This document shows, piece after piece, positions 9,828-32,138 of a stretch of 64,000 nucleotides of DNA. The first letter of the stretch is position 1. Every line of letters begins with the position of its first letter. The translations under genes and the position numbers were made by a program. The notes beneath the pieces are model-generated. The model did no database searches. It had not been told where the DNA came from and worked only from the letters and a program-made list of their open reading frames with translations. Source of the stretch: Tautonia marina (GTDB taxonomy: Bacteria > Planctomycetota > Planctomycetia > Isosphaerales > Isosphaeraceae); contig NZ_WEZF01000006.1 in the NCBI RefSeq assembly GCF_009177065.1, forward strand, positions 124,001 to 188,000, read 5' to 3'.

Positions 9828-11726
9828 TCACGTTCCAGAGGTCAAAGAGTCCTTGTTTGAAGAAACGCTCGCCGGAGAACCCGAAACGACATTCAACCGC
9901 GGATTCCCCGAGGCGTTGCGTTCCTCCTCCTCCCAGTGATCACCGAGTCCTTCGGTGGCGTCGTCCATGCGACCCAGGCAACGGTTGAACGACTGCATGG
10001 TGGCCAGCAGCAAGACCACGGTCAGGCCAAGGTACGCAACGGTCCAGAACAGAACCCAGAAGGTTTGACTGGCGAACGCTCGTGGGGGACCTTCGTCCGC
10101 GATCAGGGCATTGTACACACCGACGCCAAAGAAAGGACTTGCCGCCGCGATCCCGAGCGTCACATTTTGTGCCCAGTCTGCAAACAGCAACATGGCGAAA
10201 AATGGCCAACCAATCGAAACGGAAACATAAATTCCGGTGGTCAGGCCCACCGCCTTCCCCATTCGAGACGTCCAGGTGGCCAGCGCCAGGCCCAGGCTGG
10301 TGATGGCCGCCCCGTAGGCCAGAATCAACGCGGCCAGCAATGCTACCGCCCCGAACCGCCCGGAGGAGGTCGATTGGGCCAGGGCGACACCGATTGGCAA
10401 AATCAATAGCGGTGGGACCGATCGGAATGCTCCTCGCCACTTTCCCCAGACAATCGAACGGGTTGACATGGGGGTCGCCATCAAGACATCTAGGCTCCCT
10501 CGCTGCCGCTCCTCCGAAAGGCTCGTTGCCGCCGAGACGCTCAGCAATAACAATCCCAGCGGCACCTGCACCACATTCACGAAGACCCCCAGCCCCATGC
10601 CCCAGGTCTGTCCCGATAAGGCCAGTTGAATCGCATAAATGCTGAACCCACCACAAAAGAGAATGTAAATTCCCCACGAGATGAGGTCCATTCGAGTCGG
10701 TTGTTTTCGCTGACACTCGCGCCAGTACACCGGATTCTGATCGAGCGATGGGGAGGGCCAAAGACTCCGAAGCTTCCTCGAAACTCCCGCCGTTCCCGGC
10801 GCCACCCGCGCAAACCGATCCGACTCGATTGCCCCGGCCAGGCGTGCTCGAAGCGACCGTCGCCGTTCGCGCCCTCGTTCCACCTTGCCGAGCTGCCCGA
10901 CCACCACCGATCGAATTCGCCAGATCGACACGCCGATCAAGCTTGCAGACACCGTCAGCCCCAGGCACAGGAACGCCAGGTTCGTTTGAAATGTCACTGG
11001 ACGCATCATCGGCATCGGTTCAACTGCGGAGAGCACCAGAAACACCGGGTTGAATCGGAGCAATTCGTGAAACAGGGTGAGTTGCGACCCTCTCCAGTTC
11101 CTCGGGAGCAGTTCAAACAGGCCCAGGCTGATCGGCGCGGCCAGGAGATACAGAATTCCGAACACATACGCCATCATCAAAACTTCATGCGTTTTTTTTC
11201 CCCAGATCGACAGCGTCAGCGCGAGCGAGCAGCCGAAGATCGCCACCGCCAAGATCACCAGCAACGAACCAATCAGGCCCACCGGGTCGATCCCGCCGAA
11301 CAGGGTTCCGATCGCCAGCACCGGAGCCGCGCAAAGGATCAATCCCAGCACCGGGACGAGTCGCGCCCCGAGCTTCCCCAGCACAATCTCCGTGTTCGAC
11401 AGATCGGTCGCAAACAAGAGCGTCAGGTTGCCTCGCGCCTTGTCCAGACAGATCGACCCGGCGGTCGCGGCCGGTGCCGACAGTCCCACCAGGCCCAGCA
11501 ACAGCATCGAGGTCGTTCCGAAAAACGCCTGCCCCACCTGGGCCTGATGCCGGATCGACATCTGCCCCGACGCCCTCCAGCTCGGGTTCGACTCGAACCA
11601 GACCAGCGTCATCGCCGCCAGTAAGAACAGGACCGTCAGGGACCGCATCGCATACGCCTGCCAGCGCCGCGAGGTCATCAACCACTCAAACGCGAAGACC
11701 GGCCCCAATCCGACACGACCCGCCAT
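9828..11726 (-). CDS. Large ABC-2-type membrane permease
   Basis: Predicted 632-aa polytopic protein with about 12 hydrophobic segments. Features of ABC-2 family permeases include VFAFEWLMTSRRWQAYAMRS at the N-terminus and SICLDKARGNLTLLFATDLS plus EERQRGSLDVLMATPMS, the paired elements that follow the first helices of each half. This suggests two fused permease halves. A cognate ATPase is not adjacent. ATG 11726 was chosen because GGGAGG lies about 10 nt upstream; an earlier ATG at 11762 is possible. A hydrophilic C-terminal tail contains YNALIADEGPPRA-type loops. The substrate is unknown. Confidence 0.88.
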   Translation of the reverse strand: MAGRVGLGPVFAFEWLMTSRRWQAYAMRSLTVLFLLAAMTLVWFESNPSWRASGQMSIRHQAQVGQAFFGTTSMLLLGLVGLSAPAATAGSICLDKARGNLTLLFATDLSNTEIVLGKLGARLVPVLGLILCAAPVLAIGTLFGGIDPVGLIGSLLVILAVAIFGCSLALTLSIWGKKTHEVLMMAYVFGILYLLAAPISLGLFELLPRNWRGSQLTLFHELLRFNPVFLVLSAVEPMPMMRPVTFQTNLAFLCLGLTVSASLIGVSIWRIRSVVVGQLGKVERGRERRRSLRARLAGAIESDRFARVAPGTAGVSRKLRSLWPSPSLDQNPVYWRECQRKQPTRMDLISWGIYILFCGGFSIYAIQLALSGQTWGMGLGVFVNVVQVPLGLLLLSVSAATSLSEERQRGSLDVLMATPMSTRSIVWGKWRGAFRSVPPLLILPIGVALAQSTSSGRFGAVALLAALILAYGAAITSLGLALATWTSRMGKAVGLTTGIYVSVSIGWPFFAMLLFADWAQNVTLGIAAASPFFGVGVYNALIADEGPPRAFASQTFWVLFWTVAYLGLTVVLLLATMQSFNRCLGRMDDATEGLGDHWEEEERNASGNPRLNVVSGSPASVSSNKDSLTSGT

Positions 11727-29204: not shown

Positions 29205-30200
29205 ATGATGAATCGACGCACCCAAGGGTTCACGTTGATTGAGCTGCTCGTCGTCATCGCCATCATCGGCGTGCTGATTGCCTTGCTCCTGCCCGCTGTC
29301 CAGTCGGCCCGCGAGGCGGCTCGGCGGGCGCAGTGTACCAATTACCTGAAGCAGATCGGCCTGGCCGTTCACAACTATGTTGACGTCCACGGGGTCCTGC
29401 CGGTCGGGCGCGGGACCCGGCCGCCGCGGCCTTACGACATCACCTCGCGGTACAACTACTCCGGATTCGCGAGCCTACTGCCGTTTCTGGAGCAGGCTCC
29501 CGTGTCCTCGGCGATCAACTTCGACCTGACGATGACTGTCCAGGAGGGGAACTCGACGGTGATGGCCACGGTCATCGCCAGCCTGCTTTGCCCGTCCGAC
29601 GGCCAGCAGACCCCTACGGACTGGGCGGGCAACAACTACCGCTTCAGTGAAGGATCGAACATCCTTTACTCTCATGGCGCGACGGATACCGGCGGAGTCA
29701 ACACCACCATGCCCGAGCCCAACGGCCCGTTCTTCCCGGAGCGGTCGTTCCCCCTGGCGAAGATCCGAGACGGCACGAGCAACACGATTCTGGCCTCCGA
29801 GAAGCTCCTCGGCGACTACAACCAGGGCATTCCGACGATCCGGCGCGACATCTACGTCTCGGCGACCTGGCCGACGACGCTCGATGAGGCCTTCCGGAAC
29901 TGCGAATCCGTCGAGAATTCGAGCACCCCTTCCAACGGCGAGTCGAACGTCGGCGCCCCCTGGCTCGACGGGTTTTTGCACACCTCGATTTTCAAGGTCG
30001 TCTCCACGCCCAACAAAAAGTCCTGCTACATGTTCCCCGCTCGGCTGGTGATGTCGGCCAGCAGTGAACATCCCGGTGGTGTGAACATCGCCTTGTGCGA
30101 CGGTTCGGTGCGCTTCGTCAAGGACACCGTCGACCGCTCCGCCTGGTGGGCGATCGGCTCGATGAACGGTGGCGAGGTCGTCTCGTCGGATTCCTACTGA
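29205..30200 (+). CDS. DUF1559 domain protein with type II pilin-like N-terminus
   Basis: Predicted 331-aa protein of the large planctomycete DUF1559 family. The N-terminus has a prepilin-type cleavage/methylation motif, GFTLIELLVVIAIIGVLIAL, at residues ~8-27. It is followed by the conserved REAARRAQCTNYLKQIGLA, a central receptor-like region, and the C-terminal H-x9-DG motif in EHPGGVNIALCDGSVRFV. GGAGAG lies upstream of ATG 29205; ATG 29208 is also possible. The protein is probably inner-membrane anchored and surface or pseudopilus related. Precise function unknown. A lipoprotein follows after 40 nt. Confidence 0.95.
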   Translation: MMNRRTQGFTLIELLVVIAIIGVLIALLLPAVQSAREAARRAQCTNYLKQIGLAVHNYVDVHGVLPVGRGTRPPRPYDITSRYNYSGFASLLPFLEQAPVSSAINFDLTMTVQEGNSTVMATVIASLLCPSDGQQTPTDWAGNNYRFSEGSNILYSHGATDTGGVNTTMPEPNGPFFPERSFPLAKIRDGTSNTILASEKLLGDYNQGIPTIRRDIYVSATWPTTLDEAFRNCESVENSSTPSNGESNVGAPWLDGFLHTSIFKVVSTPNKKSCYMFPARLVMSASSEHPGGVNIALCDGSVRFVKDTVDRSAWWAIGSMNGGEVVSSDSY

Positions 30201-30240: not shown

Positions 30241-30648
30241 ATGCGCGTCAAATCCTGGCGATTGGCCCCCGACCGCGCGGCGATAGCCGTCGGAATCGGG
30301 CTGCTGCTGACCTGCTGGTCGGGATGCGGGAGCGGGCCGCCCGTTGCCGCGAGCGAGGACCAAGCGAGAGAAGTCCTGAACGCGGCCCTCGAAGGCTGGC
30401 AGGGGGGGGCCTCGATCGAGGACCTCAAGGAGTCGTCCCCTTCGATCGTCGTCTCCGACCCGAAGTGGTCGGGCGGTACCCGTCTGTCGCGATTCGAGGT
30501 CGAGGGGGAGGGGAAGCCGGCGGGTGCCGAACGGCTTTTCACGGTCACCCTCTGGCTGGAGGGGAACGGGGGCGAGGAGGTTGCCGAGACGGTCGAGTAC
30601 AAGGTCGGGACCGATCCGATCCGCACCGTCTTCCGAGCGATCTTCTAG
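30241..30648 (+). CDS. Lipoprotein downstream of DUF1559 gene
   Basis: Predicted 135-aa lipoprotein with a signal ending in LTCWSGC (lipobox) near residue 29. The mature part has SEDQAREVLNAALEGWQGG, SIVVSDPKW and RLFTVTLWLEGNG. Planctomycete genomes often place a small lipoprotein of this type next to a DUF1559 gene. Probably co-transcribed with it. No enzymatic role can be assigned. Confidence 0.85.
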   Translation: MRVKSWRLAPDRAAIAVGIGLLLTCWSGCGSGPPVAASEDQAREVLNAALEGWQGGASIEDLKESSPSIVVSDPKWSGGTRLSRFEVEGEGKPAGAERLFTVTLWLEGNGGEEVAETVEYKVGTDPIRTVFRAIF

Positions 30649-30731: not shown

Positions 30732-31799
30732 ATGGGACTCCTTCGGAAGGTGCCCTCGATCGGGGCCGTCGCCACGCTGTTCGCGGCGACGGTGATCGCG
30801 TCCTCGGGCTGGGCCGCAGCGCCCGAGCCCCCGGGGCCTGCGAGTCACGGGGATGGTGACCGGCTCGCCCGCGTACCTGTGCTCGATAACGCCGAAGCAT
30901 GGGCGTGCCTGCCCGTCGAGCACGGCGAAGGGCAGGCCCCGGCGTTGCCAACCTGGGCTCGCGTGCTGGCTCGCGCCCTGCCGGCGACCACGGCTCGGAT
31001 GCTCGTGCTGGACCACGTCCAGCGCACGGGAAGCTCGCTCGATCCCGCCCTTCGTGCCGCCATGCGATGGGCCGCCGCCGATGCGCTCGAGAGTTCGTAT
31101 GGTCGAGACACCGCCGAGGCCGACCTGCGCCGCCTCGGGTTCGAGGACGACGCGATTCGCCGGTGGACTGAGGCCCCGCACGAAGGGCTCTCCGGGCCGG
31201 AGCACGATGCCCTCGCCTTTGCTCGCGCGCTGACGCTGGAGGCGGACAAGGTCACCGATGCCGAGGTTGCCAGGCTGATCGAGGCCTTTGGCGAGTCCTC
31301 GTTCGTCGCAATGGTCCACTTGCTGGCCTATGCCAACTTTCAGGACCGTCTTCTGCTTGCGCTCGATGTCCAGGTCGAGCCGGGCGGCCCGCTGCCGCCC
31401 CTGGAGGTGCAGATCGACCTCGACGCCATGCCGGAGGTCCCGGAGCGGAGGCCCCCCGACGGCCCCGCCCCAACGGTACCGACCCACGTCGGCGACCCGA
31501 CCTGGGCGGCGACCGATTTCGACGAACTGCAGGACCGGCTTGAGGCCCAGCGTGGCCGCGCCAGCCGGATCCGGGTTCCGAGCTGGGAGGAGATGCTCGC
31601 TGCGCTCCCAGAGAGCGTCCCGCAACCGGAGCGCCGCCACAGTGTGAAGTGGACCCTCGTCGGCATGGGTTACCAGCCCACACTGACCTCTGCGTGGCTG
31701 ACCACAATGCGCACGTTCAGTCCCGAGTCGGGGACCGATCGGGTCTTTCGGGAGAGCATCTTCTGGGTCGTCACGCGGACAATCCACTGCTTCTACTGA
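30732..31799 (+). CDS. CMD/AhpD-like protein, part upstream of in-frame TGA
   Basis: Predicted 355-aa reading frame up to a TGA. ATG 30732 follows GGGAGA by about 9 nt. A signal peptide (VATLFAATVIASSGWAAA) leads a secreted protein. Residues ~80-215 form a first carboxymuconolactone-decarboxylase-like repeat without its Cys pair (HDALAFARALTLEADKVTD, LIEAFGESSFVAMVHLLAYA). A second repeat begins near residue 320 and reaches the redox motif T-I-H-C-F-Y before the TGA at 31797. The frame goes on without shift at 31800 into the rest of that domain. This part alone would lack the end of the second repeat. See the separate 30732-32138 entry. Confidence 0.8.
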   Translation: MGLLRKVPSIGAVATLFAATVIASSGWAAAPEPPGPASHGDGDRLARVPVLDNAEAWACLPVEHGEGQAPALPTWARVLARALPATTARMLVLDHVQRTGSSLDPALRAAMRWAAADALESSYGRDTAEADLRRLGFEDDAIRRWTEAPHEGLSGPEHDALAFARALTLEADKVTDAEVARLIEAFGESSFVAMVHLLAYANFQDRLLLALDVQVEPGGPLPPLEVQIDLDAMPEVPERRPPDGPAPTVPTHVGDPTWAATDFDELQDRLEAQRGRASRIRVPSWEEMLAALPESVPQPERRHSVKWTLVGMGYQPTLTSAWLTTMRTFSPESGTDRVFRESIFWVVTRTIHCFY

Positions 31800-32138
31800 A
31801 TGGGTCACACAGAGATGCTGCTCGCGGTCGCGGGCCTGGACGCAGATGCACTGACCGATCGGACGCGCCGCCTCGCCAGCGGTGACTGGTCCTCCTTTTC
31901 ACCCTCAGAGCGGGCGGCCTTCTTCTTCGCTCGCGAGCTGTCGCTCGACCCGGCGTTGATTGACGATGCGGACGTCGAGGAACTGATTGCCCACTTCGGC
32001 ACCGAGCGGGCTCTGGACGTGGTCTGGTGGTCGGCCCGTTGCCACTACATGACCCGTGTGGCCGACGCCTTCCAGATCCCCCTGGAGCGTGAGAACGTCT
32101 TTCAACCTCCGCCGGATGAGCCGGAGGATCCGAAGTGA
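31800..32138 (+). CDS. CMD/AhpD-like protein, part downstream of in-frame TGA
   Basis: 112-codon frame beginning at ATG directly after the TGA, in the same frame as the upstream part. It carries the rest of a carboxymuconolactone-decarboxylase-like domain (GHTEMLLAVAGLDADALTDR, DVEELIAHFGTERALDVVWW, CHYMTRVADAFQIPLEREN). It is unlikely to be an independent gene: the initiating ATG is the Met expected after the second Cys of the CxxC motif, no ribosome-binding site lies before it, and it starts mid-domain. Treat it as the C-terminal part of the 30732 gene. Confidence 0.6.
   Translation: MGHTEMLLAVAGLDADALTDRTRRLASGDWSSFSPSERAAFFFARELSLDPALIDDADVEELIAHFGTERALDVVWWSARCHYMTRVADAFQIPLERENVFQPPPDEPEDPK
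31820..31835 (+). promoter_or_regulatory. SECIS-like stem-loop candidate
   Basis: A 6-bp stem, GCUCGC (31820-31825) with GCGGGC (31830-31835) including one U-G pair, is capped by a GGUC tetraloop (31826-31829). The loop begins 26 nt after the TGA, inside the spacing reported for bacterial SECIS elements (about 16-37 nt). The same GGUC loop occurs in the E. coli fdhF SECIS. A U at 31822 lies near, but not exactly at, the bulged-U position of fdhF. SelB binding is inference. Confidence 0.5.

Follow-up and report, generated by a model that had tools for sequence, protein, structure and literature searches.

Does the TGA codon that falls within an AhpD/CMD-like reading frame of the planctomycete Tautonia marina encode selenocysteine (Sec), or does it end a protein? 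The codon lies in a stretch of 64,000 nucleotides (contig NZ_WEZF01000006.1, positions 124,001 to 188,000, forward strand), here called the window. An earlier note, made from the letters of this stretch, had proposed a selenoprotein of the AhpD/CMD type. Its selenoprotein finding holds and is stronger than first claimed: judging from sequence comparisons, gene 30732-32138 almost certainly encodes a selenoprotein with Sec at UGA 31797-31799.

An open reading frame through a TGA codon

The frame probably begins at ATG 30732, with GGGAGAA 5' of the start and a signal-peptide-like stretch after it (Table 1). Around the site the window reads ACA ATC CAC TGC TTC TAC TGA ATG GGT CAC ACA GAG ATG CTG CTC GCG GTC GCG GGC CTG, and with TGA taken as a residue the translation is TRTIHCFYUMGHTEMLLAVAGLD. 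Sequence and translation agree with the earlier note in placing the in-frame TGA at the second Cys position of C-F-Y-U, and the frame does run on past it as claimed, the next stop being the TGA at 32136-32138 that ends the gene.

Table 1. Features of the predicted selenoprotein gene and its upstream neighbours (window positions)
Feature	Position	Strand	Details and basis
DUF1559 prepilin-like gene (N_methyl + SBP_bac_10 + HX9DG)	29205..30200	+	Opens a DUF1559 - lipoprotein - CMD cluster that recurs in relatives
Small lipoprotein-like gene, directly upstream of the selenoprotein gene	30241..30648	+	In several relatives a homologue lies ahead of the CMD gene
Predicted selenoprotein gene	30732..32138	+	468 residues, Sec at 356; translation with TGA=U, homologue alignment over most of the length
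Putative signal peptide (MGLLRKVPSIGAVATLFAATVIASSGWAAA)	30732..30821	+	Sequence inspection; model residues 1-42 of low confidence
N-terminal AhpD/CMD-like repeat without CxxC	30888..31364	+	Residues 53-211; AlphaFold helices, alignment columns 119-124
C-terminal AhpD/CMD repeat with CFYU-MGH	31647..32072	+	Residues 306-447; AlphaFold/Foldseek, invariant residues
Redox motif codons TGC TTC TAC TGA, C353-F-Y-U356 (CxxU)	31788..31799	+	Sequence
UGA, predicted selenocysteine codon (Sec356)	31797..31799	+	61 homologous genes with TGA and 43 with TGC at the codon
Predicted bacterial SECIS hairpin GCUCGC-GGUC-GCGGGC	31820..31835	+	Arms 31820-31825 and 31830-31835, loop 31826-31829, 26 nt after the UGA; conservation, covariation, bSECIS model

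Homologues carry TGA or a cysteine codon at the same site

Whole genomes were searched with stops read through. Within the window's family, 39 of 45 genomes contain a match; the closest matches all carry TGA at the same codon, followed in closeness by CFYC, CPYC or CNYC proteins, and an order-level search gave the same result. A class-wide search of 398 genomes yielded many more TGA genes, 43 of which were checked. The final set comprises 61 homologues, from 50 genomes, in which precisely this codon is TGA, and 43 others with TGC, with no third residue at the site among the checked genes. One contig-end fragment (L065) and one locus taken to come from the same genome as L089 (L171) were left out of the class-wide counts, against double counting. 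The earlier note had proposed checking homologues for Cys at this site, and every one of the non-TGA genes (43/43) has it. There are individual departures: L064 has Cys at the site and a TGA elsewhere, and L131 and L159 contain further stops.

A single base change would turn TGC or TGT into TGA, as expected of a nonsense mutation, a pseudogene or a sequencing error. However, the recurrence of the same TGA in 61 genes of 50 genomes rules out sequencing error as a general explanation, the frame is otherwise open in nearly all of these genes, and conservation at the protein level extends downstream of the TGA. We consider the probability of this reading negligible. The locus might instead comprise two separate genes, with the upstream frame ending at TGA 31797 and translation restarting at the adjacent ATG 31800, and there is indeed an ATG directly after the TGA and an ORF (31800-32138) downstream. 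However, Met357 is conserved in the Cys homologues, where TGC-ATG lies within one open frame, and some TGA genes have CTG rather than ATG after the TGA (L133, L139, L156 and L158). A split would also halve the CxxC motif, and it leaves unexplained both the covarying hairpin described below and its absence from Cys genes. A two-gene arrangement is thus very improbable.

A single CFYC gene shares one branch of the family tree with the Sec genes (100/98). Two state changes suffice in the class tree, where 36 genes of the CPYC/CNYC and similar types and 3 of the CFYC type make up two separate groups surrounded by Sec genes. This pattern suggests that Sec may be ancestral in the AhpD-like family and that it was replaced by Cys twice; the class tree is a quick tree with a midpoint root, so the direction from Sec to Cys is tentative. 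In the genomes searched, the two-repeat family occurs almost only in one planctomycete class, and a phylum-level sample added one matching genome outside the class (G483, with one in-frame TGA). The searches also recovered distant two-repeat CMD paralogues with about 30-40% identity (for example G000:C5:250888-251931, L086), and several matches in the N-terminal half of such paralogues were flagged with one TGA inside.

A conserved hairpin downstream of the TGA

The hairpin with a GGUC loop that the earlier note placed 26 nt downstream of the TGA is there. Its 6-bp stem and GGUC loop are intact in all 61 TGA genes and in none of the 43 Cys genes. Across the TGA genes the outer pair takes five forms (G-C in 49, C-G in 7, U-G in 2, U-A in 2 and A-U in 1); shuffling the partners, with relatedness ignored, left 42 paired on average and never reached 61 in 2000 trials. 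In one gene (L129) the fourth pair is G-C instead of C-G, and the two exchanged bases both occupy third codon positions. Eleven of the 16 hairpin nucleotides are identical in the 61 genes.

The coding sequence is otherwise far from fixed. In the first set of 19 TGA loci (one a contig-end fragment), pairs of genes use the same synonymous codon at 51% of conserved residues on average, and 10 of 252 sites show no variation at all. Five of those ten form an unbroken run, codons 363-367, which is the longest invariant stretch in the gene and takes in the 5' arm of the hairpin, its loop and one half of the 3' arm. At residue 365, whose codon occupies window positions 31824-31826, all 61 Sec forms have Ala, whereas each of the 43 Cys forms has Glu, Asp or Gly. 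The apparent reason is that the stem requires a GCG codon there. The exchange thus appears to be imposed on the protein by the RNA hairpin.

The bSECIS model allows a loop of 3-9 nt, a stem of 4-16 bp, G in the first two loop positions, a spacing of 16-37 nt and a minimum free energy of ≤ -7.5 kcal/mol, and with its 4-nt GGUC loop, 6-bp stem, 26-nt spacing and -9.5 kcal/mol (for the isolated hairpin) the window's element lies within these limits (PMC13188914). Its stability is unremarkable, with z = +0.81 against shuffles for a 71-nt fold, and we therefore rejected thermodynamic stability as SECIS evidence. In the 66-nt folds of relatives computed in silico, competing structures often beat the hairpin. 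As read from the alignments, its signal beyond chance is conservation rather than stability. The likeness to the E. coli fdhF SECIS proposed in the earlier note extends to an apical GGUC loop carried by an upper stem of 3 bp with a U below it, but not to spacing, as the loop lies 18 nt after the UGA in fdhF and 26 nt after it in the window. The U is bulged in fdhF, whereas in the window it opposes a G.

The host has the machinery for selenocysteine insertion

The search for Sec machinery, set beforehand as a test of the proposal, found all of it in the host genome (7.07 Mb in 80 contigs, 97.8% complete). A single tRNA-Sec is present, with UCA as its anticodon (66.5 bits); SelB (367 bits) and SelA (522 bits) are both over cut-off and adjacent on contig C3. 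SelD is over cut-off at 350 bits, and its gene contains one TGA in frame, flanked as CAG-TGA-AGK. This host selD gene (G000:C26:63918-64850, L087) is an independent candidate for a second selenoprotein in the same genome.

Every one of the 15 family genomes that carry the Sec form has SelA or SelB over cut-off; two of them (G016 and G022) were counted by SelB, with SelA missing or split in both. Among Cys-only family genomes, 4/12 have SelA or SelB and 8/12 lack both (Fisher p = 2e-4 for co-occurrence with the Sec form, kinship ignored). One of the eight, G044, is 74% complete, and the family tree places its CFYC protein within the Sec clade.

Could the TGA be read as some other residue, through genome-wide code reassignment or Trp/Arg suppression? 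Nothing specific favours this reading, which would sit poorly with the Cys found at the site in every non-TGA homologue, with the TGA (32136) that ends the selenoprotein gene itself, as in many relatives, and with the presence of tRNA-Sec, SelA, SelB and SelD, and its probability is vanishingly small. The two-gene restart, pseudogene or sequencing error, and code reassignment were all rejected, on the frames of homologues, the conserved Met357 and the TGA/TGC pattern.

Selenocysteine is thus by far the most probable reading of the codon. In the proposed mechanism, SelB and tRNA-Sec(UCA) would decode UGA 31797-31799 as selenocysteine, guided by the SECIS at 31820-31835 within the coding region.

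A predicted two-repeat protein of the AhpD/CMD superfamily

The earlier note had described a recognisable CMD domain. Pfam gives no match to the window protein itself, but 37 of the 49 aligned family members match PF02627 (CMD) at E ≤ 0.01 and the predicted fold agrees. The AlphaFold model (pLDDT 87) has two helical repeats, and Foldseek matches to AhpD-type structures (6k40, 2oyo, 2prr and 3c1l) have TM scores on target of about 0.65-0.77 (0.77 for 6k40). In the model, the gene product is composed of two AhpD/CMD repeats, with the CxxU redox pair kept only in the C-terminal one, where it lies at a helix-turn-helix with a His nearby; this predicted AhpD-type helical fold is that of the AhpD/CMD superfamily. 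The invariant residues of this repeat are C353, Y355, C/U356, M357, G358, H359 and E361; for C353, Y355, position 356, H359 and E361 this holds across 49 aligned sequences. Glu341, a candidate proton-relay position, is partly conserved (32/49). The corresponding motif of the N-terminal repeat is CxY[A/S/G/T] in most homologues and SSYG in the window protein. Inspection of the N-terminus suggests that the protein is exported. The AhpD/CMD assignment therefore stands by predicted fold and by the profiles of relatives, but the protein is not a plain AhpD, being two-repeat and apparently exported instead.

Possible deiodinase-like partners in relatives

No family is over cut-off for the lipoprotein-like gene upstream (30241-30648). 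The order DUF1559 - lipoprotein - CMD recurs directly in five genomes (G014, G023, G035, G199 and G297), and in four (G004, G024, G025 and G067) a deiodinase-like domain lies between the lipoprotein and CMD. DUF1559 and lipoprotein-like genes occur upstream of Sec or Cys CMD genes alike, often in several tandem copies.

Among 47 deiodinase-like (PF00837) matches in the family, 17 fall within 15 kb of a CMD-family member. Some deiodinase-like genes carry TGA in GSFT-TGA-GPF/PPY (L089:4351, L095:2110, L097:3243, L102:2628 and L107); in several, GSFT-TGA-GPFRSQF is followed by a conserved inverted repeat of the GGTCCCAGTTTGGGACC type. These TGA-bearing deiodinase-like genes are likely selenoprotein genes, and at several loci they adjoin the CMD gene.

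At two loci, L089 and L175, a single frame runs through both the deiodinase-like and the CMD part; it contains two TGA codons and, in between, no further stop. These frames apparently encode two-Sec fusion proteins, with one TGA per part. The first spans L089:4801-7413; in the second, on the minus strand, the TGA codons are 442 codons apart and the CMD one is at 10520. Five further loci join a Cys-type deiodinase-like part and a CMD part in one open frame (L188 in G067, L093 in G004, L096 in G024, L101 in G025 and L099 in G044), the CMD part having Sec in all except L099, where it has Cys. We found no mention of a deiodinase-CMD fusion in the 2026 review (open-licence literature), and an earlier description may exist elsewhere. 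The deiodinase-like gene of the host is on another contig and lacks an in-frame TGA; the evidence for a partnership comes from relatives.

Possible functions of the CxxU repeat

By analogy with AhpD, the C353 thiol and U356 selenolate would cycle through a selenenylsulfide, and this CxxU cycle, located outside the cytoplasm, would serve to reduce either a peroxide or some oxidised partner. The partner in relatives could be the adjacent or fused deiodinase-like protein, an AhpC/TSA-related protein of thioredoxin fold. We draw this link because AhpD reduces AhpC and the genes are close or fused in relatives; it is the least certain step, and we hold it tentatively, at somewhat below even chances. 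The AhpD-reduces-AhpC role itself still awaits firm experimental support in some settings (PMC8945050). A direct peroxidase activity, as reported for sestrin (PMC4674687), would be equally compatible.

Might the selenoprotein have some other role, as a reductive dehalogenase like the CMD-fold debrominase Bmp8, or as a structural or regulatory sestrin-like protein? Bmp8 is among the sequence and fold matches, the association with deiodinase-like proteins could point the same way, and the full-length fold resembles Sestrin2. However, Bmp8 is no closer than other AhpD-type proteins, the neighbourhood gave no hint of a halogenated substrate, and deiodinase-like proteins of bacteria are expected to act in redox reactions, not on thyroid hormones (PMC1088965). 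We judge such a role unlikely, though much less so than the alternatives to selenocysteine itself.

Returning to the redox reading, the deiodinase-like neighbour and the two-repeat CxxU protein might constitute an extracytoplasmic planctomycete selenium relay, in some species joined into a single two-Sec chain, with Sec perhaps ancestral and Cys arising at least twice. In such a relay the selenol or thiol of the deiodinase/AhpC-like protein would attack a peroxide or organohalide, and the AhpD-like CxxU protein would re-reduce it. This larger scheme is speculative, and we give it the lesser chance.

Significance and comparison with known systems

Neither Pfam nor NCBIfam resolves this selenoprotein family, which is present in at least 50 genomes of planctomycetes, and automated annotation will therefore tend to cut the gene at the UGA, giving a truncated protein plus an orphan. 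The strongly conserved SECIS with its Glu/Ala exchange offers a clean natural test of coding-region RNA constraining a protein. The deiodinase-like link, including two-TGA frames, hints at a partner and opens the function of deiodinase homologues in bacteria to direct tests.

How does the window protein relate to described families? No NCBIfam model is over cut-off for it. The best profile match, TIGR01926 (peroxid_rel, peroxidase-related enzyme), matches both repeats, but at 47.2 bits it misses the cut-off of 81.8, and the model of 178 positions covers about one repeat. NF041238 (AhpD_rel_CFYUT, alkylhydroperoxidase-related (seleno)protein) has CFYU in its name and weakly matches the C-terminal repeat, but the score of 19.7 bits is far under the cut-off of 175 and most family members are unmatched (14/49 match at E ≤ 0.01). 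Members of the deiodinase family (NF038285/PF00837) are neighbours or fusion partners of the CMD family in relatives, sometimes with an in-frame TGA, but differ in fold and gene and are absent from the window.

Sestrin2 likewise has two AhpD-fold repeats in one chain, one of them with a degraded redox motif, and the whole chains align with a TM on target of 0.53-0.59 (rmsd about 13 Å over about 400 columns, at about 10% identity). However, in sestrin the redox-active repeat is N-terminal with a single catalytic Cys and the C-terminal repeat is without a redox motif (PMC4674687), whereas the predicted active repeat of the window protein is C-terminal with CxxU and its N-terminal repeat has SSYG, which sets it apart from the sestrins.

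The closest parallels are the AhpD-like/CMD-like CxxU selenoproteins, known since 2005. The earlier note had pointed to such proteins from metagenomic surveys, and they are indeed described from the Sargasso Sea and GOS marine metagenomes (PMC1088965, PMC2398784). They share the AhpD/CMD domain, CxxU and a downstream bacterial SECIS with the window's family, but are filed under COG2128/pfam02627, whereas the window's family is two-repeat and apparently exported. What appears to be new is this planctomycete family with its two repeats and apparent export, together with a SECIS that hardly varies and an association with deiodinase-like selenoproteins, two-TGA frames among them.
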